Positions 1 to 20,709 are shown, numbered from the stretch's first letter. The stretch is DNA of 22,235 nt from a virus (IMGVR_UViG_3300014720_000209:1-22235), one strand, 5' to 3'. Notes: generated from the sequence alone by a model not told the origin. A program made the numbers and translations.

Positions 1-106
1 AGATATTGAACAAACAATAAGAACAAGAGTGATGAATCCATTTGAATATGAGATTACAATACCTAATTTTGAGGATGTGGAAATAATAGACATTTATAAC
101 ATATGA
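1..106 (+). CDS. C-terminal end of an unknown protein (cut by left edge)
   Basis: An open frame enters from the left edge and ends at TGA 104-106. It encodes about 34 residues ending in PNFEDVEIIDIYNI. The acidic, strand-like tail has no motif I can assign. The stop overlaps the start of the next gene (ATGA at 103-106), the usual arrangement of translationally coupled phage genes, which supports it being a real gene end. It could be a virion structural protein by position, but nothing in the visible part proves it. Confidence 0.55.
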   Translation, partial: DIEQTIRTRVMNPFEYEITIPNFEDVEIIDIYNI

Positions 107-210
107 ACCTACAAGAAAACATACAGAAAATTAAACAAATGATGGGACTTCTTACTGAAGATGAGGTGACGGACTTCCTTCGTCAAATTCAAGAATTGGA
201 AAAAGAATAA
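103..210 (+). CDS. Small tagged protein, 35 aa
   Basis: This tiny gene starts at ATG 103, overlapping the upstream stop by ATGA, and ends at TAA 208-210 just before a strong terminator. The first 20 residues are MNLQENIQKIKQMMGLLTED, an amphipathic helix ending in L-T-E-D. That matches the general pattern of the N-terminal tags seen through the window (hydrophobic-x-E then a polar residue). The remaining 15 residues are a charged helix. Function is unknown; it may be an internal virion peptide. Being last in its operon and coupled by overlap makes it credible despite its length. Confidence 0.6.
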   Translation: MNLQENIQKIKQMMGLLTEDEVTDFLRQIQELEKE

Positions 211-218
211 TAAAAATG

Positions 219-248
219 AAACCCCCTACATAAAGTGGGGGGGTTTTT
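219..248 (+). terminator. Rho-independent terminator
   Basis: AAACCCCC (219-226) pairs with GGGGGTTT (239-246) across a 12-nt loop and runs into a T tract. It closes the operon that enters from the left edge. Confidence 0.85.
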
Positions 249-268
249 ATGAAAGGGTTTGAACGATA

Positions 269-275
269 TATTTAT
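269..275 (+). promoter_or_regulatory. TATTTAT late-promoter-like element
   Basis: TATTTAT lies 17 nt before ATG 293 and directly after a terminator, so a new transcript must begin here. It is one of 15 such start-proximal copies. No Shine-Dalgarno sequence is visible between the element and the ATG. Confidence 0.6.
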
Positions 276-292
276 TATTAAAATAAATTCTC

Positions 293-1630
293 ATGAAAAA
301 AATTGTTAAGCTCACAGAGTCGGATTTGTATAACATAATTCGTAAAACCCTTTCTGAAGACGCTCCTGAACCTGTCCCATCAAATACCGAAGCCGGAAGA
401 GCCGCGAAATTTTTGTTCGACGAAAATGAAACTAAGTTCGACCCTGAAACTACCGAACTCGCCAAAAAATTCTTAAGAGATGGAATCAAAAGTTCGATTC
501 CAACCATTCGTAAGTTTCATAATGACCCTCAATTCAAAATGCCTCCCGTGGTAACCTTCCATGTTGGCACATCTTCAACAGGTGACTTTAGAACCAACAA
601 ATCCGTTGCTGAGAAAAGGATGTCTTATCTTACGGACATTTATTTGGATATTATGAATAGTTTTGGGGTAAGAGATGATGTTGCGTACAAACTATTGGTT
701 CAGAGTAATAAATCATATACTCCATCAAAAATTGACAGAGATTTTTATGACCCTTCAAAGGTTAGCCCCAATGATAAGGAAAGAATTGCGACCATAGTTG
801 TTCGTCCAATCACTACTCAAGGAAAGAATATTAGGGATATTGGTAGAATCAGTGGTGGGTTAATTGATGCCGCTTCAATTGTGAATACGTGGCTTTACGA
901 CAACGTTGATGAAAAGGGAATCCTTCAAGGTATAAAACAGCTTCAAACCTATTCGGACATCAAAGACCTTGATAGAACTTTAATCGATGCGAGAATGGGT
1001 TCACTTCAACGTTACTTGAATCGTGAGTTGAGTAACTACCCTGAGATTAAAAGACAAATTGTTAATCACTTGAATCAAATTGCGAAGAGAAGTTCCAAAT
1101 CCGCAATTGCTAATTTGGTGGGTGATACTTTGTCAATTATTCTTGAAAACAAAAAGGTCGTAAAACTTACTGAGTCGGAACTAGTTGGATTGATACAACA
1201 AGTTATCAGTGAACAAGAAACTTCACCCGAATGTCAAAAAATTATTCGTAAAATCGAATCTCATAAGTCCATGGGTAATCGTTTGATTTCCTTAGTTCCA
1301 AGAAAATATCGTGACACATTCCAACAAATTTTCGAAATGGGAATGGAAGATGGTCCTGAGGCGTTCAGAAACGCGATTCCTCAAGAGTTCAAACAAAAGT
1401 TCGAAAAAGTAATTTCAACACTCAAAAAACCCAAAACAGATGCAGAACTTGAATCGATGATTTCAAAGATTGAAAGTGATGCACAACAAATCAAAGAACA
1501 ATTTTACGGTCCATCTTGGCTCATGCCAACGATTATGATTGCGGGAGCACTTTTCATTTTGGTACTCTTAATTATTGGCTTGAAAAATAACGCTGGTGAA
1601 TATTGTGGGCAATCAGTTTGGTGGAACTAA
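293..1630 (+). CDS. Double-tagged putative internal virion polyprotein, 445 aa
   Basis: The protein starts with a tag, MKKIVKLTES then IIRKTLSE|D at residues 15-23, that ends in L-S-E like a T4 prohead-protease site. A second near-copy lies inside at residues 287-307 (KKVVKLTESE ... QQVISE|Q), preceded by I-L-E|N at 283-285. The middle part (residues 30-285) is unknown. The C-terminal part is mostly charged helix and carries one membrane segment at about residues 412-432, followed by a short tail ending CGQSVWWN. I read it as a fusion of two tagged genes, possibly cut by the phage prohead protease into two mature proteins. It is a single-gene unit between a terminator plus TATTTAT upstream and a terminator downstream. 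Function of the mature pieces is unknown. Confidence 0.85.
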   Translation: MKKIVKLTESDLYNIIRKTLSEDAPEPVPSNTEAGRAAKFLFDENETKFDPETTELAKKFLRDGIKSSIPTIRKFHNDPQFKMPPVVTFHVGTSSTGDFRTNKSVAEKRMSYLTDIYLDIMNSFGVRDDVAYKLLVQSNKSYTPSKIDRDFYDPSKVSPNDKERIATIVVRPITTQGKNIRDIGRISGGLIDAASIVNTWLYDNVDEKGILQGIKQLQTYSDIKDLDRTLIDARMGSLQRYLNRELSNYPEIKRQIVNHLNQIAKRSSKSAIANLVGDTLSIILENKKVVKLTESELVGLIQQVISEQETSPECQKIIRKIESHKSMGNRLISLVPRKYRDTFQQIFEMGMEDGPEAFRNAIPQEFKQKFEKVISTLKKPKTDAELESMISKIESDAQQIKEQFYGPSWLMPTIMIAGALFILVLLIIGLKNNAGEYCGQSVWWN

Positions 1631-1651
1631 AAGGTAATTAACCCCTCTAAC

Positions 1652-1679
1652 ACCCTCCCCACAAAGGAGGGTTTTTTTT
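1652..1679 (+). terminator. Rho-independent terminator
   Basis: ACCCTCC (1652-1658) pairs with GGAGGGT (1666-1672), followed by eight T residues. It ends the 293-1630 transcript. Confidence 0.9.
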
Positions 1680-1680
1680 A

Positions 1681-1700: not shown

Positions 1701-1705
1701 TTAAC

Positions 1706-1712
1706 TATTTAT
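1706..1712 (+). promoter_or_regulatory. TATTTAT late-promoter-like element
   Basis: TATTTAT lies only 5 nt before ATG 1718. This spacing argues for the 1718 start rather than the in-frame ATG at 1682, and implies a leaderless or nearly leaderless mRNA if the element is a promoter. Confidence 0.55.
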
Positions 1713-1717
1713 GGTTA

Positions 1718-2056
1718 ATGAAAAAAGTTGTCAAATTAACCGAAAAAGACCTCTCAAGAATTATTGAGAAGGTAATTTTAGAACAGGAAACGATTAATTT
1801 ACCCACAAAAGGGTTAAAACCTGTATTTGAACCCTCGAAAGTATCACAGATAAAGTCTCAGGCGAATGACTTAGCGGGTAATAATCTTATTATGATGAAG
1901 GTCTTACGGGCGATGAAGCAAGTTGACCCTGAGGCGTATCACATGATTACTAAGGGTACTGACCCTGTCGAGAGGACTCCTGTTGGTGACGCCGTAATTG
2001 GTGGTACGCTCATTTCTCTGATATACACATTGGTACAAGAATTAAAGGGAGAATAA
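1718..2056 (+). CDS. Tagged putative internal virion protein, 112 aa
   Basis: The start at 1718 gives MKKVVKLTEKDLSRIIEKV followed by ILE|QET. It is the closest relative in the window of the internal tag at residues 287-307 of the preceding gene (KKVVKLTE in both, and both end I-x-E-Q-E-T). An upstream in-frame ATG at 1682 would add 12 residues and hide the tag, so I reject it. The C-terminal end (about residues 90-108) is hydrophobic (VIGGTLISLIYTLV) and probably forms one membrane segment. It is followed after 2 nt by another tagged gene. Function is unknown. Confidence 0.75.
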   Translation: MKKVVKLTEKDLSRIIEKVILEQETINLPTKGLKPVFEPSKVSQIKSQANDLAGNNLIMMKVLRAMKQVDPEAYHMITKGTDPVERTPVGDAVIGGTLISLIYTLVQELKGE

Positions 2057-2058
2057 TC

Positions 2059-2214
2059 ATGAAGATTATTATATCTGAGAGTCAGTACAACAGATTGATT
2101 GAAACCAACTCCAAAACAGAAATTAAGGAGAGGTGTTGGAAAGGTTATACCCAAAAGGGTATGAAAACCATGTTTGGGAAGAGATATCCTAACTGTGTTA
2201 AGAAAACAAAATGA
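2059..2214 (+). CDS. Small tagged protein with two cysteines, 51 aa
   Basis: The gene lies 2 nt after the previous stop and overlaps the next start by ATGA (2211-2214). It begins MKIIISESQYNRLIE|TN, a short tag ending in L-I-E. The rest is basic, CWKGYTQKGMKTMFGKRYPN then CVKKTK. The pattern C-x(5)-G-x-K-x(2)-F-G-K-x(2)-PNC-V-K is one I associate with small proteins of marine and Bacteroidota phages, but I cannot name a function. The two cysteines (residues 26 and 46) suggest a small disulfide- or metal-stabilised fold. Confidence 0.75.
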   Translation: MKIIISESQYNRLIETNSKTEIKERCWKGYTQKGMKTMFGKRYPNCVKKTK

Positions 2215-3079: not shown

Positions 3080-3218
3080 TTTTACGGATGAAAAACTCCT
3101 TCTTGAATACGAAGGTATCGTAAAAAATGGTGTCAAAACACAATCTTCTTGGATAGGAAAACAATTATTGAAACAAGAAATTATTAGGAGAGGTCTTCTT
3201 TTACCCCATTACGGATAA
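3054..3218 (+). CDS. Small protein containing an IVKNGVKT motif, 54 aa
   Basis: An ATG at 3054 lies inside the end of the previous gene and opens a 54-codon frame ending at TAA 3216-3218. Residues 18-30 read LEYEGIVKNGVKT, which resembles the repeated motif (EDTIQNGVKxT, TVKNGVKET) of the convergent gene on the other strand. The C-terminal half is basic and hydrophobic, ending GLLLPHYG. It overlaps the convergent gene by 35 nt. No function is known; the shared motif with its neighbour is the best evidence that it is real. Confidence 0.5.
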   Translation: MTSNFYILNFTDEKLLLEYEGIVKNGVKTQSSWIGKQLLKQEIIRRGLLLPHYG

Positions 3219-3894
3219 CCTCACTCACTCTTGTTTGAGATTGTTTCTCATAACCCCAAATTTCCTTGATTCCTGACTCGATGACACTATCAACAAAGGT
3301 TGGATGGTTGTCAACACATCTCCAATTTGTTTCTTTGACACCATTCTTAACCGTCTGAACCACTTCTCGTAATCGATGATGTTCTTCCATGTAGGTTTCT
3401 TTCACCCCATTTTGAATGGTGTCTTCAACTTCGTTATTCTGTTTTGGTGATTCAAATTGATGAATTTTCTTACCTTTTTTACTGACAAAACCCAAATATC
3501 CGCCCGGTGTTGTTTTTTTTACACCATTTTGAATGGTGTCCTCAGCTTCAAAATCAATAAACCCATTGCCAGCTTGGGTGTGTTTCACCCCATTTTGAAT
3601 AGTGTCCTCAGCGAAAACAAATTGTTGGAATTTTAGACCTCTGGTGTGTTTCACCTCATTTTGAATGGTGTCCTCAGCCCATTCGGTGATAAACTTTTGG
3701 TTTTCAATCAAATCCATGGAAAAAAACTTGAAAATTTTCTCAAAGAAATAGTAATTGTACCAAAGAACCCCTTCCTTTGATAACTCAAACACCCATTTCT
3801 TTTGGTCAGTGAATATTAACCACAAACTTCCTTTGTGTCGGTAGAAATCCGCACCCTCAACAAAATCTTCGAAAAAAGTAAACATATGTTTCAT
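3184..3894 (-). CDS. Peptide-repeat protein with EDTIQNGVK repeats, 236 aa
   Basis: I start it at the ATG at 3894, just after a host-type promoter, rather than at 3930. Residues 1-70 form a compact domain rich in aromatic residues (SLWLIFTDQKKWVFEL, LWYNYYFFEKIF). From residue 74 the protein has seven copies of a short motif: four near-identical (EDTIQNxVKxT at 74, 96, 118, 157) and three diverged (TVKNGVKET at 181, VIESGIKEI at 204, VIRNGVKED at 226). The segments between motifs vary freely in sequence and length (11-28 residues). I do not know the function; possibilities are tandem binding peptides or a fast-evolving surface. Its own promoter class suggests early expression. Confidence 0.75.
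   Translation of the reverse strand: MKHMFTFFEDFVEGADFYRHKGSLWLIFTDQKKWVFELSKEGVLWYNYYFFEKIFKFFSMDLIENQKFITEWAEDTIQNEVKHTRGLKFQQFVFAEDTIQNGVKHTQAGNGFIDFEAEDTIQNGVKKTTPGGYLGFVSKKGKKIHQFESPKQNNEVEDTIQNGVKETYMEEHHRLREVVQTVKNGVKETNWRCVDNHPTFVDSVIESGIKEIWGYEKQSQTRVSEVIRNGVKEDLS
3193..3675 (-). repeat. Seven coding repeats of about 30 nt
   Basis: On the plus strand the repeats read roughly TTTCACCCCATTTTGAATGG followed by TGTCCTCAGC, at irregular spacing of about 60-120 nt. Four copies are near identical at DNA level and the three nearest the 3' end of the gene are diverged. They encode the EDTIQNGVK motifs. Confidence 0.8.
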
Positions 3895-3899
3895 ACCAT

Positions 3900-3931
3900 C
3901 AAATATACAACATAAAAAATGACTCACCAAA
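3900..3931 (-). promoter_or_regulatory. Bacteroidota-type promoter, TTTG-N20-TATATTTG
   Basis: On the minus strand TTTG (3931-3928) is followed after exactly 20 nt by TATATTTG (3907-3900), matching the Bacteroidota consensus TTTG / TAnnTTTG. The start codon at 3894 follows after 5 nt, so the mRNA has almost no leader. Confidence 0.75.
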
Positions 3932-3949: not shown

Positions 3950-3956
3950 TATTTAT
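3950..3956 (+). promoter_or_regulatory. TATTTAT late-promoter-like element
   Basis: The context is GAGGTATTTATC, 11 nt before ATG 3968. It lies head to head with the host-type promoter at 3900-3931, so the 73-nt divergent region serves one gene of each class. Confidence 0.6.
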
Positions 3957-3967: not shown

Positions 3968-4861
3968 ATGTCAAAAATGAAAATAGTCGTCAACCAGAAC
4001 CAATTCGAGCGTCTACAAGAAATTCAAGAAAAAGACCAAGTCAATCAAATTTTGGTCGAGTCTTTGGATGAATCGGATTATTACGAATTGGGAGTTGAGT
4101 ATATTAGGGATTGGATAAAGAAAAATAATATAAAACTTCCACAACCAAAAGTTCCGATGTCTTGGGTCTTAAAAAATTATGGGAATGATATTGTCTCATC
4201 GTTGGATATGGCTCTTGAAAGAGGTTTTCGTTCGGGTTTGATGTCAATTGGGTCTATTGGTAAGGCAGCATTATTGAAAGGGTTTGTGGAAGACCCCACT
4301 ATTAGTAGGGAGGGTACTTTTACTGAGAAATATGGTCCTTTATTGAAAAAAATGTCAAAATTTTATTTACCCGATTATGTGGAATTGGGTAATATAAATG
4401 AGTCCTCTTCTTGGGATGCCACAGTTGCTTTCACTTTTGACCCTGATGCTGTTCTAAAAAAAGGAAAAGTAAGTGAGTTGAGAAAATTTAAACAAGGAAT
4501 TGTCGAGAGCAACTTATTTAAGGTATTAGGATTGAAACAGGGGAAATCAAAGGCTCATGGTGGTGTGGATTTGAATGTCAAGTTCTACCCCAAATATGAT
4601 TGGTACGAGGAGGTTGCCCCAAGTCTGATTAAAACAATCAAGAAAAATTTGAATACAAACAAACAGATTTGGCAAATTAAGAGAAATACGGGTGTTTTTG
4701 AATATGGGTTCTCCCCTTTGAAAATTTATGTACACTATAATTTTAGAATTAAAAAGGGTGATAACTCCTTCTATGATTGGGAAAGAGAACTAAACAAACT
4801 TTTACTTGATTTGGGATATGAGTTTCCCGATGCGGTATATTCTATCGAAACAAAATACTAA
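3968..4861 (+). CDS. Tagged unknown protein, 297 aa
   Basis: The start at 3968 is the first ATG after the TATTTAT; an in-frame ATG at 3977 would give MKIVVNQNQFERLQE, which resembles the other tags more closely and is an alternative. A longer N-terminal helix follows and ends QILVE|SLDES (residues 27-36), a possible hydrophobic-x-E cleavage site. The rest appears soluble. It includes a glycine-rich stretch (residues 87-106) and a strand-rich C-terminal half with many aromatic residues (KFYPKYDWYEE, IYVHYNFRI). No family recognised. It leads a run of four genes separated by 2 nt or overlapping. Confidence 0.75.
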   Translation: MSKMKIVVNQNQFERLQEIQEKDQVNQILVESLDESDYYELGVEYIRDWIKKNNIKLPQPKVPMSWVLKNYGNDIVSSLDMALERGFRSGLMSIGSIGKAALLKGFVEDPTISREGTFTEKYGPLLKKMSKFYLPDYVELGNINESSSWDATVAFTFDPDAVLKKGKVSELRKFKQGIVESNLFKVLGLKQGKSKAHGGVDLNVKFYPKYDWYEEVAPSLIKTIKKNLNTNKQIWQIKRNTGVFEYGFSPLKIYVHYNFRIKKGDNSFYDWERELNKLLLDLGYEFPDAVYSIETKY

Positions 4862-4863: not shown

Positions 4864-5379
4864 ATGAAAAAAATATTAAGTGAATCGGAAAAAAATGAGA
4901 TTCGTAAATTATACTACGAGTCTGATGAAGACCAAATTAGAAATCTATTAGACAACGAAGAGTTTAGGCAAATTTTTACTGATTTTTCCTCAGGAAGAAT
5001 CACTGAGAAAGAGATGGAGATGAAGGTCAAAATTATGCTTTTGGGTGAAGAAGTAAAATACCTGAGGGAGATATTCGAAGATTACCCCCACATTGCCGAG
5101 AGAGTAAAAGATTCTGATGTTGTTGAAATGGCAAGAGACACCATCCGTACTGTCAATAATAATTCAGATGCGTTCTTTGGTAATTATGGGGATTTGAATA
5201 TGTTACCCAAACACGCTTATTCCACAATGATTATTGCCGGTTTAATTAAAAGACTTGAAGATATGTATCCTGAACTCAAACGTGATTTGGATTGGTCTGG
5301 TGATTTTATTAATTACATGAAATTTTTCCACGACGACATTCTCTTCGGTGGTTTTGATGAGCTAAACATGGACTTATGA
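4864..5379 (+). CDS. Tagged unknown protein, 171 aa
   Basis: It begins MKKILSESEKNEIRKLYYES, a second subtype of the tag (S-E-S-E-K-N/D-x-I-R-x-L-Y-E) shared with the genes at 13332 and 13610. The rest is largely helical and acidic, with no recognised domain. It lies 2 nt after the previous gene and its stop overlaps the next start (ATGA at 5376-5379), so it belongs to the same operon. Probable internal virion protein by its N-terminus only. Confidence 0.75.
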   Translation: MKKILSESEKNEIRKLYYESDEDQIRNLLDNEEFRQIFTDFSSGRITEKEMEMKVKIMLLGEEVKYLREIFEDYPHIAERVKDSDVVEMARDTIRTVNNNSDAFFGNYGDLNMLPKHAYSTMIIAGLIKRLEDMYPELKRDLDWSGDFINYMKFFHDDILFGGFDELNMDL

Positions 5380-5974: not shown

Positions 5975-6142
5975 ATGGAAGATTTAGGAACAATTCAATA
6001 CACGGACGCTAAAATCACCTTGATAAGTCCAAACGGTAAGAAAGAAATTTATACAATACAAAAAAACCCCACGTATGAGGTGGGGACTGTCTTTGTCAAA
6101 TTCAAAGGTATGATTTACTTCCTGTACAAAACGGTGGGTTAA
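5975..6142 (+). CDS. Small basic beta-rich protein, 55 aa
   Basis: A 55-codon frame runs from ATG 5975 to TAA 6140-6142. It encodes a strand-rich peptide (ITLISPNGKKEIYTIQ, GTVFVKFKGMIYFLYKTVG) that looks like a small barrel or hairpin fold. The stop overlaps the stop of the convergent basic-protein gene by 4 nt, the same tight convergent arrangement used elsewhere in the window. A hairpin lies inside the frame (CCCCAC 6067-6072 with GTGGGG 6080-6085) without a T tract. Function is unknown. Confidence 0.6.
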   Translation: MEDLGTIQYTDAKITLISPNGKKEIYTIQKNPTYEVGTVFVKFKGMIYFLYKTVG

Positions 6143-6352: not shown

Positions 6353-6359
6353 TATTTAT
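6353..6359 (+). promoter_or_regulatory. TATTTAT element that decides the start at 6366
   Basis: TATTTAT lies 6 nt before ATG 6366. It falls between two candidate starts (6330 and 6366); by analogy with the other copies the start is 6366, which also exposes a canonical tag. Confidence 0.6.
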
Positions 6360-6365: not shown

Positions 6366-6968
6366 ATGGACTACCTCTTGAACGAATCCCAACTCAAAGT
6401 AATTTTGGAAAACGTGACTGATAGCCACGTATTCAAGACCGAGTACAACCCAGGTAATAAGACCGTCTTGGCGTCTTACTATCTTTTGGAGGAGAACGAC
6501 AAGACCTACAAAGTTTTGAACCCCATGGAATTTGAACAATCTACTGTTTGGGCGGATAGTAAGGCGGTCTACAAAATCAAGATGCCGGTCATCACCCTTC
6601 CGAAAACTCAAGTAACAAAGTTGGGACCCGAGTCCAGTTTCAAAGGGTATTACAAATTTCAAATCCCGTATTGGCTTTACAAGAAAGAGCCCAACATGGC
6701 TATCAAGAAGGTTAACAAACCAAAAAGATTCACATCACCTAACGATAGTGAGTTTATCCGAGCCTTCACTAATTCCGATTACAGAGATGCTTTTGAAGCT
6801 ATTGGTACCGATATGAGAAAGTGGACTGCCATGAGTAACATATTGGAAAAGTGGTTGGAAATCGAAAGACAAAAGGCTGCAGGTACTTATGTAGAACCTG
6901 AAAAACCAGGTAGTCAGCCATCCCAAGGATTTGGCTTTATGAGTGGAGCACGTTGGACAGGAGATTGA
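6366..6968 (+). CDS. Tagged unknown protein, 200 aa
   Basis: With the start at 6366 the protein begins MDYLLNESQLKVILE|N, nearly the same as the minus-strand protein starting at 20709 (MEYILTESQFQKLILE|S). Both end the tag in I-L-E. Upstream ATG 6330 would add 12 residues and bury the tag. The body is strand-rich and basic, with a proline/glycine-rich C-terminal tail (VEPEKPGSQPSQGFGFMSGA) that looks disordered. No domain recognised. It is flanked by TATTTAT elements on both sides and is therefore probably a single late gene. Confidence 0.8.
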   Translation: MDYLLNESQLKVILENVTDSHVFKTEYNPGNKTVLASYYLLEENDKTYKVLNPMEFEQSTVWADSKAVYKIKMPVITLPKTQVTKLGPESSFKGYYKFQIPYWLYKKEPNMAIKKVNKPKRFTSPNDSEFIRAFTNSDYRDAFEAIGTDMRKWTAMSNILEKWLEIERQKAAGTYVEPEKPGSQPSQGFGFMSGARWTGD

Positions 6969-7369: not shown

Positions 7370-7376
7370 TATTTAT
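7370..7376 (+). promoter_or_regulatory. TATTTAT late-promoter-like element of the five-gene operon
   Basis: The context is AAGGTATTTATGG, 18 nt before ATG 7395. It overlaps by 2 nt the inverted repeat at 7375-7389, so a protein bound to that repeat could block or modulate this element. Confidence 0.6.
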
Positions 7377-7394: not shown

Positions 7395-8111
7395 ATGAAA
7401 TTTTCTCATTTTTATGAAGACTTAGTTCTTGAGGACAAGGGGAGACCTATGGACCCCGATAGATTCGATAAACTCACGAGTTTATTCGGGAAATATATGT
7501 TTGACGAATTTGCCGCAAAACCAGCACAATTGTCAAGAATACCTATGTATAGTGAGTTGAAAAAGTATGCCATTTCTAAACAGGGGCCTGGTGAAGATGC
7601 CAATGATATGGACCAATTGGTTCTAATGTTAGCTCCTGACGCTGCTGAAAAGGCAAATTTGGTTTATGATTGGTTGAACACTCTACCTCAGCTTTCGGCA
7701 CAAAAGTTTATGAATAGTGTTGCTGAAATGTTTCCCAATATTGGTGAGAAGAAAAGATATTTCGAAAAACCCGAAGGTTATCAACCATCAGGGAGAGGAA
7801 GGAAAAGAGGTTCAAAAAACAAACCAAAAACTCCCGTTATCTCAAGACCACCGATAGTTCAAGAACCGATTGCGGTTGATGAACCTGTTACTTCACAAGA
7901 ACCCGAAGTTGATTTAGATTTAACCTTGACAGAACCCGTGAGTGTTGAAAGAGGAAAAAGAGGAAGAAAACCCGGTCTTACCCCAAAGACAGTTGATAGA
8001 ATTTCTCAAAACCTATACAAGGTTCACTCAAACATGGAAAATCAGTTATCAAAGATGAAAAATTTGATGGATGATTTGATTAAGAGAAAAGATTTCTTCG
8101 GAAAACAATAA
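7395..8111 (+). CDS. Tagged protein with AT-hook-like basic segments, 238 aa
   Basis: The N-terminus, MKFSHFYEDLVLE|D, is compact and looks like the T4 capsid-targeting sequence (short, F/Y-rich, ending hydrophobic-L-E). Residues 20-120 are helical. Two basic GRxRK-type motifs resemble AT-hooks: SGRGRKRGSKNK at about 134-145 and GKRGRKPG at about 190-197, separated by a proline/acidic linker. The C-terminal 40 residues form a helix (MENQLSKMKNLMDDLI). I infer a DNA-associated internal capsid protein; the cleavage and packaging are not proven. It leads an operon of five genes with gaps of 0 nt or overlaps. Confidence 0.75.
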   Translation: MKFSHFYEDLVLEDKGRPMDPDRFDKLTSLFGKYMFDEFAAKPAQLSRIPMYSELKKYAISKQGPGEDANDMDQLVLMLAPDAAEKANLVYDWLNTLPQLSAQKFMNSVAEMFPNIGEKKRYFEKPEGYQPSGRGRKRGSKNKPKTPVISRPPIVQEPIAVDEPVTSQEPEVDLDLTLTEPVSVERGKRGRKPGLTPKTVDRISQNLYKVHSNMENQLSKMKNLMDDLIKRKDFFGKQ

Positions 8112-8483
8112 ATGAGACAAACTGTCGAGGAACGCAACTTGATGAACACCCTGAAAAGGTTGGTTGGTCAGTATATGCCCATTGAACTCGACAATTACGA
8201 ACAAAACATCCAAGATTTTTTGGATGATAGTTATTCTGATTTGAAAAAGGTCGAATCCTCGGGAACAAGTGGGTTATTTTTTTTCTTAAACGGAAGACGT
8301 AATGTTTTTAACTACATCAAACAAAATCAAAAATTAATTTTTCCTGAAGAAACTTTCACTCGAATCATGAGACAATTTGGCGTTGATGACGACCAACTTG
8401 AATATCTATTGAGGGATTGGTTTGAGAAAAAAACCAATTTTGAAGTGAAAGACTTTTATCTCAAAACCAACAATGATAATTGA
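8112..8483 (+). CDS. Unknown operon protein, 123 aa
   Basis: It starts directly at the base after the previous stop (TAAATG) and overlaps the next gene by 11 nt. The product is helical, beginning with RNLMNTLKRLVGQYMPIELD and ending with a helix containing LEYLLRDWFEKKTNF. The layout (a helix, a short strand region, a C-terminal W-F helix) is like the genes at 2741, 5376 and 5666, so it may belong to that small family. No tag cleavage site and no known domain. Its fixed place between an AT-hook-like protein and a nuclease candidate suggests a shared pathway. Confidence 0.7.
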   Translation: MRQTVEERNLMNTLKRLVGQYMPIELDNYEQNIQDFLDDSYSDLKKVESSGTSGLFFFLNGRRNVFNYIKQNQKLIFPEETFTRIMRQFGVDDDQLEYLLRDWFEKKTNFEVKDFYLKTNNDN

Positions 8484-9384
8484 GGATAAACAAACACTAC
8501 TTAAGGTAATTTCTGAACAGGTCCTCCCGTTCGGAAGTGGTGCGTTGTCCCCAAAAGATATCGGTAAAATCAAATCAGAAGGAAAAAAAATTTATAAGTT
8601 TTTGAGAGAAAATTGGGTTGACACAATCAATCAATATTTCCAAAGAGAAAACAAAAAATTGAGAATTGGTCCACCAAGTGATGAATTTACCCAAAAAAAC
8701 CTCAACGACATAAATTGGGTATTGAATGGACCTGGAAAAAATGTTTTACATTTTGATGAATATCGTAAAGGTGTTGCCAAAGACAAATTACTCAACCTCA
8801 AAAGAAAACTTCAAACAGGAGAATATGTAATTTTTCAACACGACAATGATGAAGGGGTTTTGGATTGGAGTTTTATAAATCTGTTTGACACAGGATATAT
8901 GTTTTGGGTTGATAAAATCAAAGAAGCCTACGAAAAGTATCCTAATTTCAAAGACGAAATTGATAGGATAGAAAATTCCCCGAATAAAAACTCTCAAATT
9001 ATTGATAGGTTTTTTAATTTTGAGGACCCCACAAAAATCAATTTCAGTCCAGCCTTTTTATCTTTTTTGAGTTCTCTAATCTATGAAACAAACATGTTAG
9101 AGCAAAGATTACAAAGGTTCATGATACCAGCTGAGGGAGTTGAGCAAAATTTCATCGATTGGGCAAAGAAAAGGTTCCCTGAAAAAGAACCATTTGTTTT
9201 TGCCTCAAGAGGTGGAATCGTTGACCAACAAATGGGTGTCGATGTTATGGTTTACGATAATAAAAAATGGATTCCAATACAAGTTAAATCTAGTGCTCCG
9301 TCACAGTATTCAAAACCTCCTGTTGGTGGTTGTATTGTTTGGCCAAGTGGTGGCCGTTGGGGAATGAAATGTGATTACTTTTGA
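8473..9384 (+). CDS. Tagged PD-(D/E)XK-type nuclease candidate, 303 aa
   Basis: The protein begins MIIEDKQTLLKVISE|Q, a tag ending I-S-E. The C-terminal third carries a PD-(D/E)XK signature: an acidic helix (EGVEQNFIDWAKKRF, E221/E224), then GVDVMV (D257), then WIPIQVKSS (Q270, K272), the core D...QxK arrangement with Q in place of the usual E/D, as found in several families. It ends shortly after this core (VWPSGGRWGMKCDYF). The N-terminal 200 residues are unknown. I infer a DNase carried in the capsid, which could act on host DNA or on competing genomes after injection. The start lies 11 nt inside the previous gene. Confidence 0.7.
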   Translation: MIIEDKQTLLKVISEQVLPFGSGALSPKDIGKIKSEGKKIYKFLRENWVDTINQYFQRENKKLRIGPPSDEFTQKNLNDINWVLNGPGKNVLHFDEYRKGVAKDKLLNLKRKLQTGEYVIFQHDNDEGVLDWSFINLFDTGYMFWVDKIKEAYEKYPNFKDEIDRIENSPNKNSQIIDRFFNFEDPTKINFSPAFLSFLSSLIYETNMLEQRLQRFMIPAEGVEQNFIDWAKKRFPEKEPFVFASRGGIVDQQMGVDVMVYDNKKWIPIQVKSSAPSQYSKPPVGGCIVWPSGGRWGMKCDYF

Positions 9385-9389: not shown

Positions 9390-9821
9390 ATGACTAAAGA
9401 AGAATTTAAGAAAAGTTTGGACTATAAATTGTTGAGTAAATCACTCAAGCATCGATTCCCATATTTAATTGGAATCGAACCTACTGATAACTTTGAGGTA
9501 AAAGAATCAGAATACCCAAATTTCATTTTTATTGATTTTATTTTTTCTTTGGAAAAACTACTCGAAACTTTTCCATATTGGGAACCTTTCATTTGGACAA
9601 AACAAGATTTGAATAAACAGGGTTTCAGTGAATCTCTTACACTTGGAAGTTTGGTAAATTGTATTGATGAAAATGATTGTCCTGAGGAACCCATCAAAGT
9701 CGTAATTAGAATGGAAAATTATGGGCAAGAAACTCTGAAAACCAGTAAAAAATTAATACCACAAGAAATGAGGTCTTCTAAAGAAATCATAATGACCACA
9801 AAAATATACGTTGTGAAATGA
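9390..9821 (+). CDS. Unknown protein after the nuclease candidate, 143 aa
   Basis: I prefer ATG 9390 (5 nt after the nuclease stop) over the in-frame TTG at 9381, which overlaps that stop by TTGA. The product is acidic with alternating helix and strand and no tag. A cysteine pair lies at NCIDENDCPEEP. The stop overlaps the next start (ATGA, 9818-9821). Lying directly after a nuclease candidate it could be an immunity or inhibitor protein, but there is no sequence evidence for that. Confidence 0.65.
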   Translation: MTKEEFKKSLDYKLLSKSLKHRFPYLIGIEPTDNFEVKESEYPNFIFIDFIFSLEKLLETFPYWEPFIWTKQDLNKQGFSESLTLGSLVNCIDENDCPEEPIKVVIRMENYGQETLKTSKKLIPQEMRSSKEIIMTTKIYVVK

Positions 9822-10792
9822 AGTTAGGGAATATATTAAGGAGTTTGATTTATGAGGATGTGAATGAAAAGGCATTTACACCACATGAGGTTTTTATTTT
9901 CAAATTCTTACAAAAGAAAAAAGACTCCTTACAAACCAAAGACGATTACATTAGGGTTTTACAACCAATACTCAGAGCCGCTGGTATGCCAGTTGAGGAC
10001 GCTTTGTATTATTATACTATGTTCCTTCTTAACATGAGAGCCGATGGAAAATATGAAGAGACTACCGTAGACCAAGTTAAGGATTTTTCAGGTGAAAGGG
10101 CTAAAAAAACACCTAACTACAAAATGTCCAATTTTGCCAAGATGAAGATGCCTTTTGAAGGTAGTAATGTTCGTGGGTTTTGGGAAAGAGATTTAAACGG
10201 TGTTAAACAATACATTATTACTTCGTATGATTGGTATCCAATTTACATTTACAAAGACCGTAAATGGTATAGTGTAAATAGACCATATAGTAGAAGTACA
10301 GGTAAACAAATAAATCAAGCCGGCATTGGTCGTTCATACCCTTTGACTCCAATGGAAATGAACCAACTCAGAAACGGGAACTCCATAGAAGACATTTTGA
10401 AGGAGAAAATAAAAAGGGTTACAGGATTCCTCAATGGAGAGTATTTGTTCAAAGTTAAAACCCGAAGAACCTCAGCCGGTTGGAGACATAGATATCCATT
10501 GAAAGTCACTTACGAAGTAACCTCTGTAGAACCTCAAGAAAGCACAGTCATCGTAAATGTTGAAGTTTCCAAGATTGAGGAGTACAGGGAGACCGGTCAA
10601 AAACCTGTTGAGGTGAATATCACTCCTGAATTAAGTTTCACAATTGATAATTTCATCAGAGGTGATTTATCTTGGAAAACCGAACAACAAGGTTATGATG
10701 GATACATTTTAAGACCAGTTATTTCTTATCCAAATATACAAACTCCTCCTCCATCCGATAATACAGACGAGGAACCGAATAATAACCCATAA
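9818..10792 (+). CDS. Tagged unknown protein, 324 aa
   Basis: The N-terminus is MKLGNILRSLIYE|DVNE, a short tag ending I-Y-E|D like the operon's first gene (V-L-E|D). Residues 20-85 are helical; the middle is strand-rich with repeated Y-x-Y/W motifs (SYDWYPIYIYKDRKWY); the C-terminus is a low-complexity P/D/E/N tail (TPPPSDNTDEEPNNNP). No catalytic motif recognised. The last 74 nt overlap the convergent SAP-domain gene, and since the tail is low-complexity this overlap may have arisen by extension past an older stop. Likely a capsid-packaged protein by its tag. Confidence 0.75.
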   Translation: MKLGNILRSLIYEDVNEKAFTPHEVFIFKFLQKKKDSLQTKDDYIRVLQPILRAAGMPVEDALYYYTMFLLNMRADGKYEETTVDQVKDFSGERAKKTPNYKMSNFAKMKMPFEGSNVRGFWERDLNGVKQYIITSYDWYPIYIYKDRKWYSVNRPYSRSTGKQINQAGIGRSYPLTPMEMNQLRNGNSIEDILKEKIKRVTGFLNGEYLFKVKTRRTSAGWRHRYPLKVTYEVTSVEPQESTVIVNVEVSKIEEYRETGQKPVEVNITPELSFTIDNFIRGDLSWKTEQQGYDGYILRPVISYPNIQTPPPSDNTDEEPNNNP

Positions 10793-11062: not shown

Positions 11063-11069
11063 TATTTAT
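11063..11069 (+). promoter_or_regulatory. TATTTAT element of the endolysin gene
   Basis: TATTTAT lies 16 nt before ATG 11086. This places the endolysin in the same motif class as the tagged genes and the holin. Confidence 0.6.
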
Positions 11070-13320: not shown

Positions 13321-13327
13321 TATTTAT
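13321..13327 (+). promoter_or_regulatory. TATTTAT element that decides the start at 13332
   Basis: TATTTAT lies 4 nt before ATG 13332, the shortest spacing in the window. The in-frame ATG at 13326 overlaps the element itself, so 13332 is preferred; it also aligns with the paralogue's N-terminus. Confidence 0.55.
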
Positions 13328-13331: not shown

Positions 13332-13607
13332 ATGGGACAAAGACTTATTGTAAATCAGGAAGAGAAAGAAAACATCCAAAAAATGTATGAACAAATGACA
13401 GGGGTCGCATTTGGTGGTGAAATGAACGCATTTAAAACACCTCAGGTACCAATTGAGACAGGTCAACAAGTCGACATTAAATCTTTGAACCACGACCTCA
13501 AACTTAGAAATGTAGATTTCTATTATGACGATGTAACAAAATCTTTCGAGGTTGTAGTTCGTGATGGTGGAAAAGTAATAAGATATACCGCATCAATTAA
13601 GAAGTAA
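13332..13607 (+). CDS. Tagged protein, tandem paralogue 1, 91 aa
   Basis: It begins MGQRLIVNQEEKENIQKMYE|Q and continues MTGVAFGGEMNAFKTPQ. The first 38 residues align with the next gene throughout (MGKRFFVTESEKDNIRNLYE|Q, then VAGVAFGGEMNGFKKPK), including the block G-V-A-F-G-G-E-M-N just after the putative cleavage site. The remaining 53 residues are a small strand-rich domain (VDFYYDDVTKSFEVVVRDGG) with no counterpart in the paralogue. This is a duplicated leader joined to different bodies. Likely an internal virion protein. Confidence 0.8.
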   Translation: MGQRLIVNQEEKENIQKMYEQMTGVAFGGEMNAFKTPQVPIETGQQVDIKSLNHDLKLRNVDFYYDDVTKSFEVVVRDGGKVIRYTASIKK

Positions 13608-13609: not shown

Positions 13610-14149
13610 ATGGGTAAAAGATTTTTTGTAACCGAATCGGAAAAAGACAACATTCGTAACTTATACGAACAAGTTGCTGGTGTGGCATTTGGTGGTGAAA
13701 TGAATGGGTTCAAGAAACCGAAAGAAGAAAAGGGAGGAAAACTTTTCTGTAATGCCAAAAACACTAAAACTATTCACGACCTTATGGGTGGCGCAGACCC
13801 CGAAACATACATTGACGGTATACAACTCAGAAAAGGTGGTGTAAACGGATTGGTCGACAAGTTGGAGGTTCTCAAAACAATGAGACTTTTCCCACAAATC
13901 ACCGATGGGGGTAATGATTTGTCATCTCAAATTGCCAAGGACCTTCAGGAGTTCAAACCTTACAACTACTTTGACGAAAACAAAAAAGAGTGTTGTAGAG
14001 CGATGGACAAAATTATCGAACTTTACAAAGAGAACGAACACGGAGAGGAGTTGGTCAAAGACATCGAAAAAATATACGGACTTAGTTACTTGGACGCAAG
14101 AGCAAAAGAGTTTTTGAAACACTCTTTAGGAGTTATTAAGGGGGAATAA
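13610..14149 (+). CDS. Tagged protein, tandem paralogue 2, 179 aa
   Basis: It lies 2 nt after paralogue 1 and shares the leader and the G-V-A-F-G-G-E-M-N block. The body is different: a basic linker (KKPKEEKGGKLFCNAKNTK) followed by a mainly helical domain with LMGGADPETYIDGIQLRKGG and a C-terminal helical pair (CCRAMDKIIELYKENEHGEELV, two adjacent cysteines). No domain recognised; the ADP-ribosyltransferase-like or peptidoglycan-related roles sometimes seen for injected proteins are not supported by any motif. Its stop lies inside the stem of the terminator. Confidence 0.8.
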   Translation: MGKRFFVTESEKDNIRNLYEQVAGVAFGGEMNGFKKPKEEKGGKLFCNAKNTKTIHDLMGGADPETYIDGIQLRKGGVNGLVDKLEVLKTMRLFPQITDGGNDLSSQIAKDLQEFKPYNYFDENKKECCRAMDKIIELYKENEHGEELVKDIEKIYGLSYLDARAKEFLKHSLGVIKGE

Positions 14150-15320: not shown

Positions 15321-15461
15321 TTAACCTTGTCCCCTTGAGCGTTTTTTGTAAAGTTTCGACCTCTTTGAGTTTGAGTGTTTTGTTTTAGCGTGAACACCGG
15401 GTCTTGATACTTTTGGTTTCTTTTTGAAGACCGTAATATTGGAAACTTTTGCCTTTGCCAT
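15321..15461 (-). CDS. Tiny basic SRPGVHxKTK protein, copy 2, 46 aa
   Basis: The product reads MAKAKVSNITVFKKKPKVSR, then PGVHAKTKHSNSKRSK, then LYKKRSRGQG. It is a clear paralogue of the 6139-6273 gene (shared KVSRPGVHxKTKxS and a GQG C-terminus). Unlike that copy it is preceded on its own strand by TATTTAT (14 nt upstream) rather than a host-type promoter, so the two copies may be made at different times. Nucleic-acid binding is inferred only from the charge. Confidence 0.8.
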   Translation of the reverse strand: MAKAKVSNITVFKKKPKVSRPGVHAKTKHSNSKRSKLYKKRSRGQG

Positions 15462-17381: not shown

Positions 17382-17413
17382 CAAATATACAAAACTCTGA
17401 GGTATTTATCAAA
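17382..17413 (-). promoter_or_regulatory. Bacteroidota-type promoter, TTTG-N20-TATATTTG
   Basis: On the minus strand TTTG (17413-17410), 20 nt, TATATTTG (17389-17382), then ATG at 17377. The spacer contains the complement of the TATTTAT that serves the divergent gene, so the two promoters physically overlap and may exclude each other. Confidence 0.78.
17403..17409 (+). promoter_or_regulatory. TATTTAT late-promoter-like element
   Basis: The context is GAGGTATTTATCA, 14 nt before ATG 17424. It lies within the spacer of the opposite-strand host-type promoter. Confidence 0.6.
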
Positions 17414-17423: not shown

Positions 17424-18050
17424 ATGATGGACATCAAAGGAATCCTCAGAGAATACGTTGAACGTCTTGAAGACCCAACACTAGTTTTAACGGAAGACAT
17501 AAAGATTTCCGAAGCCTTGAAATATCACATTGATAATAAGTTGTCTTTGACGGACAATATTTTTCGTGTCTATTCACAATCCTACTTCGATTTGGTAAAT
17601 GAAGTTAGAAACCTTTATCAGGACAACAAAATCAAACTTAACGAAGAGGATACCTTGATGGTTGAATCCGATTTGGGTCGTATCTATTCCTATAAAGGTG
17701 AAACCATTTATTTGGATGCTCCCTACATTTTGGAGACCGAGACAGAGGAAGATATTTTGGAGGAGGCAACTCACAGAGGTAAAAAAGTTAATCTTGGAAA
17801 GCCGTTCAGAACTCCAGGCGGACCCAAGAAATTTGCGGTGTACGTAAGAAAACCTGGCGGTGGAATTAAAAAGGTTACTTTTGGAGACCCTAAGCTTAAA
17901 ATTAGAAACGCTAACAAGAAAGCTGCGAAATCATTCAGAGCAAGGCACAACTGTAAGGACAAGAAAGATAGAACAACAGCAGGATATTGGAGTTGTTCGA
18001 TTGGTCGTTACGCAAAACAATTGGGCTTATCTAGTAGTAATTCTTGGTAA
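17424..18050 (+). CDS. Probable virion-associated protein with DUF5872-like C-terminus, 208 aa
   Basis: The N-terminus (DIKGILREYVERLED) is tag-like. Residues 20-115 are acidic and helical. The C-terminal 90 residues form a distinct basic domain: GKPFRTPGGPKKFAVYVRKP, a turn with FGDPKLKIR, then SFRARHNCKDKKDRTTAGYW followed by SC (C177, C191) and IGRYAKQLGL. This RHxC...YWSC pattern is what I remember for DUF5872, found in tailed phages and giant viruses, with no established function. A switch from acidic to basic halves suggests DNA or scaffold contact. ATGATG gives two possible starts (17424 or 17427). Confidence 0.7.
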   Translation: MMDIKGILREYVERLEDPTLVLTEDIKISEALKYHIDNKLSLTDNIFRVYSQSYFDLVNEVRNLYQDNKIKLNEEDTLMVESDLGRIYSYKGETIYLDAPYILETETEEDILEEATHRGKKVNLGKPFRTPGGPKKFAVYVRKPGGGIKKVTFGDPKLKIRNANKKAAKSFRARHNCKDKKDRTTAGYWSCSIGRYAKQLGLSSSNSW

Positions 18051-18087
18051 TTTGTAATGTTGGTAGATACTTATAATTAAAATAAGT

Positions 18088-18756
18088 GTGCAGATTTACA
18101 AAATAACTAATACTTTGAATTCAAAAATTTACATCGGTAAAGATACTACCTCGAATTCAGAATACTTTGGGTCGGGTAAATTAATCAATCGAGCAATCCC
18201 TAAGTATGGGAAAGAAAATTTTGTAAAAGAAATAATTGAAGAGTGTTCAGAATACAATGAACTAAGTTCTAAAGAAAAGTTTTGGATTGACTACTACGAC
18301 TCAACCGACCTAAACAAAGGATATAACATAAGTAAGGGAGGTGACGGTGGAGATACTATCTCGAATAATCCTGAAAGACAGGTCATTATCGAAAAAATAA
18401 GTAATAAGATGAAAAACAGAGTGTTCTCTGAAAGTCATAGGAAAAGTTTGAGTCTAAATCACGGTAGTAGTAAACTCAAAAAGGGAAAAAGTTATGAAGA
18501 AATTTATGGAAATGAAAAAGCCCTTGAAATCAGAAACAAATTGAAATTGTCAAGAACAAAATATAAAACTGAGAAGGAACGACTCGGTGAGGAATATGAC
18601 AGGGTTATTCAAATACTCAAAACCAAATTTCTTGGGGATAATAACCCAATGAAAAAAAATAAATACTATTGGTACCACAATCCAATTTCATGTGAAACTA
18701 CACGAATAAAAGAAGGTGGTTCAATCCCCGAAGGATATGCCAAAGGAAGAAAATAA
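18088..18756 (+). CDS. GIY-YIG homing endonuclease with NUMOD3-like modules, 222 aa
   Basis: A free-standing mobile nuclease. Residues 1-90 are the GIY-YIG domain: IYKITN (3-8), KIYIGKD (14-20), an invariant-type R56 region and ISKGGDGGD. The module SESHRKSLSLNHGSSKLKKG matches NUMOD3 DNA-binding repeats. A C-terminal module with NPMKKNKYYWY ... IPEGYAKGRK is typical of phage homing enzymes. GTG 18088 is the only sensible start, 13 nt after TACTTAT, a one-base variant of the late element. It is inserted between a virion-type gene and the cupin-like gene; no intron is evident. Confidence 0.9.
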   Translation: MQIYKITNTLNSKIYIGKDTTSNSEYFGSGKLINRAIPKYGKENFVKEIIEECSEYNELSSKEKFWIDYYDSTDLNKGYNISKGGDGGDTISNNPERQVIIEKISNKMKNRVFSESHRKSLSLNHGSSKLKKGKSYEEIYGNEKALEIRNKLKLSRTKYKTEKERLGEEYDRVIQILKTKFLGDNNPMKKNKYYWYHNPISCETTRIKEGGSIPEGYAKGRK

Positions 18757-18760
18757 TACG

Positions 18761-19030
18761 ATGGAATTTCCCTTCCAACAACAAACACAAGACAACAAAC
18801 TAATCAGAACCTTCACTACTGATGTCGAAGACCTCGACTTGGTATGGCATCAAGACAATAAAGACCGATTGGTTGAGATAATCGAACCCGGGGGTTGGAG
18901 TTTCCAAATGGAAAATGAGTTGCCAAACAAATTAGAGAGGGGACAAAAGTTTTTTATACCCAAATTAGTTTGGCATAGAGTTATCAAGGGAGAATCCGAG
19001 ATGGTAGTTTCCATCGAGGAGTTTGATTGA
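18761..19030 (+). CDS. Cupin-like conserved phage protein, 89 aa
   Basis: I use ATG 18761, 4 nt after the homing endonuclease stop, instead of 18716 inside that gene. The pattern LVWHQDNKDRLVEIIEPGGW ... LERGQKFFIPKLVWHRVIKG is a small all-beta fold with two W-H pairs. It fits the cupin-like proteins often found in marine T4-type phages (W-H-x-D-x-x-D-R, then G-x-x-x-x-I-P-x-x-x-x-H-R). Metal-binding histidines may be H32 and H73 but no substrate is known. It lacks a tag. Its last codons overlap a host-type promoter for the next gene. Confidence 0.65.
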   Translation: MEFPFQQQTQDNKLIRTFTTDVEDLDLVWHQDNKDRLVEIIEPGGWSFQMENELPNKLERGQKFFIPKLVWHRVIKGESEMVVSIEEFD

Positions 19031-19053
19031 GTCAATAATTTGCGTTATCTTTG
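19022..19053 (+). promoter_or_regulatory. Bacteroidota-type promoter, TTTG-N20-TATCTTTG
   Basis: TTTG (19022-19025), 20 nt, TATCTTTG (19046-19053), then ATG at 19059. It is the only complete plus-strand site of this class. Confidence 0.75.
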
Positions 19054-19058
19054 ACCCT

Positions 19059-19490
19059 ATGAAAAGGGTAGGACTTCTTCTGTTATGGATTGTAGGATTG
19101 AGTTCCCAAGCACAATCAACGGACATTATTTATGTTCCTGACGACAATACTTTGATTGCCACTTACAAAACTGAAATTGTGGGTTTATACATCGGAGGAA
19201 AATATATGACCGCTTATCCCGCACCTTACCTTTATACTACCCCTTCGGCTTTTGTCAACCGATTTGGCGCGGACATTAGTTTATTCAAAGATGTTTCAGT
19301 TTTAGTCGGTGCCCAAGTCCCAATGTACACCACATCTTGGATAGGTATTCAATACAAACCCGAAGTTTGGTTCAAGTCTCGTGTGGTTGGGACAATTCTT
19401 CAGAAAAAGATGAGGTACGACCTCACTACTATTCTACAAATCAGTAAAACCCCCTATTATGGTGTTGGAGTTTGTATACGACAAGGGTGA
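19059..19490 (+). CDS. Secreted protein with signal peptide, 143 aa
   Basis: ATG 19059, directly after the promoter, gives MKRVGLLLLWIVGLSSQAQ|S, a textbook Bacteroidota signal peptide with an A-x-A-like S-Q-A-Q cut. The mature part is beta-rich with alternating aromatic residues (VGLYIGGKYMTAYPAPYLYT, YTTSWIGIQYKPEVWF), like an outer-membrane or periplasmic barrel. A phage gene for an envelope-exported protein suggests superinfection exclusion or envelope modification, but that is inference. Its last 32 nt overlap the start of the next gene. It may be acquired from a host. Confidence 0.7.
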   Translation: MKRVGLLLLWIVGLSSQAQSTDIIYVPDDNTLIATYKTEIVGLYIGGKYMTAYPAPYLYTTPSAFVNRFGADISLFKDVSVLVGAQVPMYTTSWIGIQYKPEVWFKSRVVGTILQKKMRYDLTTILQISKTPYYGVGVCIRQG

Positions 19491-20100
19491 AAAATACCCC
19501 TTACAAAAATACCGTCAAAAGTTAGTGAGTCAACTTCAATACATGGTGGGAGAAGTCTTTCCTGATTTTTCTACCATTTTGTCCATGGGTAAAACGGGCG
19601 AAATTACCTTACCTTATGACGCCACAGGAGAAGATTTTTATTTTTTTCGCAATATCTCAACCCCACTCTCTGTTGAATTACATCTTACCATAAATCAAGG
19701 TTTGGATTTTCCCACCGGTGACGCCGAATACTATACAGAGGATAATACTATCGGGATTCAATTGACAATACCTGAGTTTTACGACTTTCAGGATGTTTCT
19801 CTTGTTTTGACTGAACTTCTCGCCCACGAGATGACTCACTTTATTCAGGACGTTGCTGGTTACCCTTTACCAGGTAAATTCAAGGGTAAAAAAATTGAAT
19901 ATTACTTACAGCCTCATGAAATCGAGGCACAATTCTTTGGTTTTTCCATTGCTTCACGGAAATTCGGAGTCTCAATAAAAGTTTTGTTTTTTAATTGGGT
20001 AAAAAATAGTAAATCAATGAAAGGTGTTTCAAGTTTGGACATTTCAATCCTTGAAACCACCATATTTGAAGACTATATGACTTATGACCTATTCTTTTAG
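19459..20100 (+). CDS. HExxH zinc metallopeptidase candidate, 213 aa
   Basis: The catalytic motif is ELLAHEMTHFIQD (H123, E124, H127), followed 26 residues later by QPHEIEAQFFGF, which offers the third ligand (E154 or E156), the gluzincin arrangement. The N-terminal part (residues 1-100) is strand-rich. There is no signal peptide, and ATG 19459 starts 32 nt inside the previous gene, which supports co-transcription. Substrate is unknown; release of packaged proteins or attack on host proteins are both possible. The last 12 nt overlap the convergent tagged membrane protein gene. Confidence 0.75.
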   Translation: MVLEFVYDKGEKYPLQKYRQKLVSQLQYMVGEVFPDFSTILSMGKTGEITLPYDATGEDFYFFRNISTPLSVELHLTINQGLDFPTGDAEYYTEDNTIGIQLTIPEFYDFQDVSLVLTELLAHEMTHFIQDVAGYPLPGKFKGKKIEYYLQPHEIEAQFFGFSIASRKFGVSIKVLFFNWVKNSKSMKGVSSLDISILETTIFEDYMTYDLFF

Positions 20101-20709
20101 TCGATTCACCACTTTGGAAACAAAGTTGTTCAACGCCGCGCCCACAATCAACACAACTCCTGACGCCAAAATTCTCTTAACAATCAATTTGGTCGTTTCT
20201 ATAGTATCTTCCCCTTGGGATAAGTCATACAAGTCCCCCAAGACAGGCAGGATAAAGGCGTAACTCAAGATTGAGTACAATGAATTAGCGGTAACTTTAA
20301 GACTATTAAGGAACATGCCCAAAGAACGTTTCAGTTCTTCGGCTTTGTCGTAGAGTTTACGGAAAACATCCAACAAACCCTCTTCTTTGATTTTTTTTAC
20401 AACCTTACGGATGAAGGTTTCATTGTCATAGAAATAGTTACTGGCAATTCCCAATATTAGTAGAATAATTTGTTCGTGTGTGAGTTCAGGATTGTTGTTT
20501 TCCAAGTAATCTTTTAATGGAACAATCATACCTCCCAAAGCCGCTCCCCACGTGATAAGGAATTTAGCGTTGAGACCCCATGTTTGGGCACATTCATCGA
20601 GAAGATTCTTGGCTTCTTGATAAAGTTCCTTTAAACTTTGAGTAATATCTTGGTTTTTTGACTCTAAAATGAGTTTTTGAAACTGAGATTCGGTTAATAT
20701 GTATTCCAT
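20089..20709 (-). CDS. Tagged multi-membrane-segment protein, 206 aa
   Basis: The product starts MEYILTESQFQKLILE|S, a perfect member of the tag family ending I-L-E. The rest is helical with hydrophobic segments near residues 49-65 (FLITWGAALGGMIVPL), 80-93 (IILLILGIASNYFY), 145-163 (YSILSYAFILPVLGDLY) and 182-197 (ILASGVVLIVGAALNNF). A membrane-active protein with a capsid tag could be one that is ejected and forms a channel or inserts in the host membrane during DNA entry; this is inference. It is the only tagged gene on the minus strand and has its own minus-strand TATTTAT. Confidence 0.78.
   Translation of the reverse strand: MEYILTESQFQKLILESKNQDITQSLKELYQEAKNLLDECAQTWGLNAKFLITWGAALGGMIVPLKDYLENNNPELTHEQIILLILGIASNYFYDNETFIRKVVKKIKEEGLLDVFRKLYDKAEELKRSLGMFLNSLKVTANSLYSILSYAFILPVLGDLYDLSQGEDTIETTKLIVKRILASGVVLIVGAALNNFVSKVVNRLKE

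Follow-up and report, generated by a model that had tools for sequence, protein, structure and literature searches.

Interchangeable N-terminal leaders as predicted capsid-targeting sequences on unrelated proteins of large uncultured T4-like phages

The internal proteins of phage T4 carry N-terminal propeptides of 10-19 residues, which direct them to the core and which gp21 removes by cutting after L/I-x-E (PMC9026906). For IPIII the first 10 residues suffice for targeting, and T4 Alt undergoes C-terminal processing too (PMC9026906). At least 10 internal proteins, found by one common leader, have been reported from T-even phages (PMC12373910, PMC9026906, PMC3012670), and Ip1-3 block GmrSD nucleases (PMC12373910). 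In the giant phages phiKZ and SPN3US, many head proteins lose N-terminal propeptides that are cut after a short E-ending motif by gp175/gp245, a distant gp21 relative (PMC10052503). DarA and Hdf of phage P1 are reported to be head-carried proteins that act on host defence (PMC12810830); the likeness to the present proteins would lie in head carriage.

The window analysed here (22,235 nucleotides) is a complete IMG/VR record and a fragment of a phage genome, and megablast against named phages gave no near match. As in the T4 system of IPI-III, Alt and gp21, it has a short N-terminal leader with an L/I-x-E end on unrelated small proteins. Also as in T4, there is a gp21-family S77 protease and a gp23 with an aligned E cut site (both from relatives' genes). 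Judging from the motif TATTTAT, expression may be late too. Unlike in T4, the leaders have no clear similarity to MKTYQEFIAE, so they were not filed as T-even internal proteins; compared by eye, the T4 ipI-III leaders and the class 1 profile described below have only M-K and the end motif in common. There are at least four leader families here against one in T4, and a single giant-phage contig can hold 19-25 cargo genes, compared with three internal proteins in T4. Tandem leaders in one ORF, recognisable enzymes among the cargo, and phages that are uncultured and in some cases exceed 300 kb also separate this group from T4. The propeptides of SPN3US are mostly long (111-254 residues, compared with leaders of 10-28 residues here), no leader family common to unrelated bodies has been reported for that phage, unlike here, and the phiKZ-type protease is a diverged homologue, whereas the matches here are to canonical PF03420. 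What would be new relative to T4 is thus the interchangeable leader families, the number and kind of cargo and the tandem units; the T4-type principle would be the known part.

The preliminary description had proposed one leader shared by 14 proteins. Judged from the related sequences, the tag is at least four leader families, each with an [ILVFYM]-x-E end, and not one sequence. Because [hydrophobic]-x-E occurs near a start by chance at a frequency estimated at roughly 30%, the original list of motifs is insufficient as proof by itself, and it is the related sequences that supply it. Class 1, the commonest leader, reads MKKII[RK]LTESDLxRIVKRVIxE. A degenerate DNA pattern fixing only about its first 16 residues gave at least 120 matches in viral contigs, from records as long as 412 kb with several copies per record, and among the matches listed the leader heads at least 115 distinct, unrelated bodies. 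Across the 115 distinct-body instances among those matches, the part outside the search pattern reads KRVIxE, E22 is kept in 107, and position 20 is I, L or V in every one. In the same 115 instances E22 has an information content of 3.86 bits, and the positions after it have 1.34 and 0.76 before a background of about 0.3-0.6 is reached. The codons of the invariant class 1 residues vary widely, so selection acts on the leader peptide.

Class 2 (MKIIITESQYxxL..E) stands before 52 distinct bodies, with E at residue 15 or 16 in 37. For class 3 ([I][TS]E[ES]EKxRIxx[LM][YH]E, or a longer form with a YLxE end), a fixed pattern over viral_contigs was too strict (2 matches only) and a search of retrieved loci was used instead; it found this leader on 46 different bodies in the leader-bearing loci, with 0 matches in 0.66 Mb of control loci. 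Class 4 has the fixed form MNLQENIxRIKxMMGL[LIV]xE and heads about 20 bodies. A tblastn search with a 23-aa leader returned no match, the query being too short for significance, and a literature search for the core string LTESDL found no occurrence. Leader-like N-termini without a clear [hydrophobic]-x-E were observed at window positions 2211 (MKVILTPEQ...) and 2741 (MKYQVSEQQ...). A few leader-like copies lie at the extreme C-terminus, in L299 (residues 123-146), L312 (residues 85-110) and L464 (near the C-terminus), and these might be C-terminal targeting tags.

All 14 starts named in the preliminary description were translated and scored with profiles built from other contigs only, against 4,906 null Met starts (Table 1). 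In total, 10 starts have profile support (weak for two), three are supported by relatives and one is uncertain. The leaders are therefore real, although they belong to several families. Profile support reaches the null limit (p 2e-4) at 293, 1718, 2059, 4864 and 20709(-) and is weaker at 3977 and 6366. The starts at 7395, 8473 and 9818 match no profile; in their orthologues the leader is either retained or replaced by another, with the junction at the same point. Two details of the earlier list did not hold: the leader placed at 3968 has a better start at Met 3977, and the cut LTE/D (a slash marks the predicted cut throughout) proposed for 17424 is not kept in relatives, which have LKKN and LKED there, while ILRE/Y would be.

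Table 1. Leaders, TATTTAT motifs and associated genes (window coordinates unless another record is named)
Feature	Position	Strand	Support or remark
Class 4 leader MNLQENIQKIKQMMGLLTE/D, 35-aa ORF	103..159	+	family pattern
TATTTAT before leader ORF 293	269..275	+	
Two-cargo fusion ORF, 445 aa	293..1630	+	
Class 1 leader MKKIVKLTESDLYNIIRKTLSE/D, ORF 293-1630	293..358	+	profile
Internal class 1 leader (IILE/NKKVVKLTESELVGLIQQVISE/Q), residues 286-307 of ORF 293-1630	1148..1213	+	profile, relatives
TATTTAT before leader ORF 1718	1706..1712	+	
Class 1 leader MKKVVKLTEKDLSRIIEKVILE/Q, 112-aa ORF 1718-2056	1718..1783	+	profile
Class 2 leader MKIIISESQYNRLIE/T, 51-aa ORF 2059-2214	2059..2103	+	profile
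TATTTAT before leader ORF 3968/3977	3950..3956	+	
Class 2-like leader, cut LVE/S as in the preliminary description	3977..4060	+	profile p 6e-4; Met 3977 the better start
Class 3 leader MKKILSESEKNEIRKLYYE/S, ORF 4864-5379	4864..4920	+	profile
TATTTAT before leader ORF 6366	6353..6359	+	
Class 2-like leader MDYLLNESQLKVILE/N	6366..6410	+	profile p 3e-3
TATTTAT before leader ORF 7395	7370..7376	+	
Leader MKFSHFYEDLVLE/D	7395..7433	+	G031 orthologue MKLSHYYEELINE/R
Leader MIIEDKQTLLKVISE/Q, PD-(D/E)XK-like nuclease candidate	8473..8517	+	orthologue with class 2 leader MEILISESQLKVLITE/S
Leader MKLGNILRSLIYE/D	9818..9856	+	same junction in relatives: MKSLRLYSILLE/E and LKKTLTE/S
TATTTAT before endolysin ORF 11086-11697	11063..11069	+	ties motif to late genes
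Endolysin ORF	11086-11697	+	
TATTTAT before leader ORF 13332	13321..13327	+	
Class 3 leader MGQRLIVNQEEKENIQKMYE/Q	13332..13391	+	class 3 search
Class 3 leader MGKRFFVTESEKDNIRNLYE/Q	13610..13669	+	class 3 search
TATTTAT before ORF 17424	17403..17409	+	
Uncertain short leader MMDIKGILRE/Y	17424..17453	+	ILRE/Y kept in relatives
Class 2 leader MEYILTESQFQKLILE/S, predicted all-helical protein	20662..20709	-	profile, homologues
TATTTAT before leader ORF 20709(-)	20716..20722	-	
S77 protease of G032	18365-19081 (G032)		Pfam PF03420

The bodies behind these leaders had been described as unrelated, but 13332 and 13610 are alike over about 38 residues, extending past the leader. Among six homologues of the 20709 product at 24-55% identity, E7, Q9 and E16 are invariant; its AlphaFold model is poor (pLDDT 59), and in that low-confidence model the leader is helical and amphipathic. 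The model of the 8473 product (pLDDT 34) gives no structural support for the nuclease candidate, and a search of viral_contigs for relatives of 8473 found none. In G087 the homologue of 6366, at 63059(-), has no leader and its start lies close to the body; a leader may have been gained or lost here. The 35-aa ORF at 103 may be a tiny cargo or a remnant. The 51-aa gene at 2059-2214 is nearly all leader plus a 31-residue tail (ERCWKGYTQKGMKTMFGKRYPNCVKK), and this tail is the end of a 179-aa leader protein in G031 (94% identity).

Homologous bodies can stand behind different leaders. The 472 leader proteins with a length of 120 aa or more (a count that includes redundant overlapping loci) fell into 205 body clusters, and homologous bodies were found behind different leader classes in eleven cluster/class combinations. 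One body carries three leaders, of class 1 (VINE/GLHDTSW), class 4 (LLTE/GLHDTYW) and class 2 (LQKE/GLHDTSW), with the junctions VINE/GLHDTSWQNDEGDK, LLTE/GLHDTYWQNEDGDK and LQKE/GLHDTSWENDEGDK. A second body carries two, of class 1 (VINE/NQEEVD) and class 2 (LLE/NQNYVD), with the junctions VINE/NQEEVDRILDKIS and LLE/NQNYVDSLLDKIS. In the best swap cases the join is exactly at E; in others the similarity begins deeper in the body, and these have no bearing on the join.

ORF 293-1630 has another leader inside it, which the preliminary description had overlooked. In an alignment with G032, a relative of 22 kb, this segment falls on the N-terminal leader of a gene that stands on its own, and the downstream half of the ORF is homologous to that separate leader gene. 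A leader-like N-terminus together with an internal leader-like segment was found in four ORFs (window 293, L083, L446 and L001) and in none of the controls. The fusion in the window may be an assembly or sequencing error.

An S77 (gp21-type) protease, Pfam PF03420, was found in 44 of 85 leader-bearing records and in 0 of 34 control records (Fisher p 6e-9), an association that is with the T4-like lineage and not itself proof of function, because the controls, drawn by an unrelated 16-mer, include few records above 200 kb and are of mixed phage type. The matches are well above the cut-off and come from 28 of the 35 leader records first tested and 16 of 50 further, shorter ones; they include all 14 leader records of at least 200 kb and also the 22 kb G032, and for leader records of at least 100 kb against controls the Fisher p is 5e-4. 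The absence of a prohead protease from the complete genome had been named beforehand as grounds for rejecting the capsid reading, and in the relatives the protease is present in the 44 records given above. A PF03420 search of the 22-kb window found none, which is uninformative for a fragment. The capsid protein gp23 is encoded by 31 of the 32 leader-bearing records examined, and [HFY]LI[NY]E/[AS] is present in 30/30 capsid proteins inspected, at the column of T4 E65/A66, so that the gp23 cut site and the leader ends have the same motif. G032 holds leader genes, terminase, portal, S77 protease and gp23 within 22 kb, and its leader genes in common with the window have 49-61% identity. Protease and gp23 are absent from the examined parts of G031 and G087, the window's two closest long relatives; G087 (74 kb), whose endolysin is 90% identical, is the way into the window's own clade. 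The distant isolate Flavobacterium phage immuto, which has S77 and gp23, has no leader array of such kind in its genome. G023 (268,739 bases) encodes the S77 protease and gp23 twice each, at widely separated places, and may be two phages joined in assembly or contain a duplicated head module.

Among the matches listed, 83 of 112 class 1 starts have TATTTAT within 60 nt upstream, compared with 8.5 in shuffles and 16 on the other strand, and in those matches its spacing before the class 1 ATG is mostly 11-13 or 21-25 nt. In five genomes, with a crude gene caller, the motif lies within 50 nt of 39 of 68 leader genes and 205 of 823 others (p 6e-8). It is also upstream of the endolysin and holin-like genes in the window and, in G032, of the portal, protease, scaffold-region and leader genes. 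We infer that TATTTAT is a late promoter, and the leader genes look late, since the motif is common to protease, portal, endolysin and holin-like genes. It stands directly upstream of gp23 in only 6 of 30 cases, so gp23 is probably read from upstream promoters.

We consider it highly probable that the leaders are capsid-targeting sequences cut off by the prohead protease, as in the T4 internal proteins. Capsid targeting with cleavage is favoured because leaders are exchanged at the E, the boundary is sharp and late-type promoters are common; together with S77 and gp23 in the relatives, this supports the original interpretation of the leader. A late gene would be expressed with an N-terminal leader of 10-28 residues, mostly amphipathic and helical, which would bind the scaffold core during prohead assembly. 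The gp21-type S77 protease would then cut after [ILVFYM]-x-E, the motif also used for maturation of the major capsid protein; the cut tag would leave, and the mature cargo would remain in the head beside the DNA and be ejected into the next host. As a self-contained module ending at the cut, the leader would fit nearly any protein, and several leader families would be deployed, sometimes with two leader-cargo units per ORF. Core binding, cleavage, packaging and ejection are steps that we infer from what can be read in the sequences, namely the leader families, their end at E, the swaps at E, the protease, the matching capsid site and the shared promoter motif. A literature search for virion proteomics of this phage group found none.

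The leader might instead be an uncleaved peptide that docks onto the assembly scaffold or some other component of the virion (core, tail tube or baseplate), with the E lying in the docking helix. Amphipathic leaders, helical in a single low-confidence model, would suit such a role, late-type promoters suit any virion protein, and a clear cut motif is missing from some leader-like N-termini. Even so, we regard docking as improbable, because conservation ends exactly at an E matching the protease motif, different leader families are joined to bodies exactly at that E, and gp23 of the same phages has the same motif at a known-type cut site. Short N-terminal helices on unrelated proteins are also typical of intracellular signals that have nothing to do with the virion, for instance tags for localisation or stability or an address for the host membrane, and some cargos look membrane-active; that explanation would leave the S77/gp23 association, the promoters in common with head genes and the gp21-like end motif unaccounted for, and we think it very unlikely. 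Even harder to credit is that the common N-termini are a recombination by-product of similar 5' gene ends, without peptide function. The leader genes do lie in arrays with upstream DNA motifs in common, but codons at invariant residues vary widely, leaders of unrelated sequence replace each other on the same body, and E16 is invariant though bodies fall to 24% identity.

Under the targeting and cleavage reading, a large uncultured T4-like phage group, some of it giant, most likely tags dozens of unrelated proteins for head loading. A relaxed search yielded 25 leader genes in G018 (304 kb; chance could account for one or two of them) and 19 in G023 (269 kb). Most cargo has no known family (148 representatives); the matches among these representatives include tRNA nucleotidyltransferase, DHH protein and P-loop kinases and, for the cell wall, peptidoglycan-binding, lysozyme or GH19 proteins and Tae4-type amidases, and a sigma-70-like factor was found by inspection (L127:2357-2932). 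These names are family matches only and denote candidate activities. It is somewhat more likely than not that the whole amounts to a modular head-loading code, in which unrelated leader families would use the same core and protease, be swapped at the cut and bring tens of effectors into each virion, sometimes as tandem units that two cuts would set free; candidate effectors would include the sigma factor, tRNA nucleotidyltransferase, DHH-family proteins, cell-wall enzymes and amidases. To our knowledge, phage-injected material other than DNA has been described in only a small number of laboratory phages. If the reading is true, virion-delivered effectors could be picked out by their first 10-28 residues among the genes of unknown function in a large uncultured phage group, some of whose members exceed 300 kb. 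That would give a direct candidate list for anti-defence and host-takeover screens, as well as a set of exchangeable tags with which proteins could be loaded into phage heads; the T4 principle would have been scaled up and diversified in nature.

No Pfam or PHROGs family was matched by most of the window bodies tested, and PADLOC gave weak matches only. The recognisable genes, mostly without a leader, are a GH19-type endolysin, a metallophosphoesterase, a GIY-YIG nuclease, a dTDP-sugar epimerase and a thymidylate synthase fragment. ORF 3184-3930 (-) repeats the peptide EDTIQNGVK(E/H)T (E or H at that position), with 36-nt DNA repeats at 66 nt spacing, and a homologous repeat ORF lies at about 23234-24370 in G031. 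The window also encodes two paralogous small basic proteins, at 15321-15461 (-) and 6139-6273 (-), with the pattern KVSRPGVHxKTKxSxxKxSKLYxKxxxGQG, and a single place in G031 matches both.
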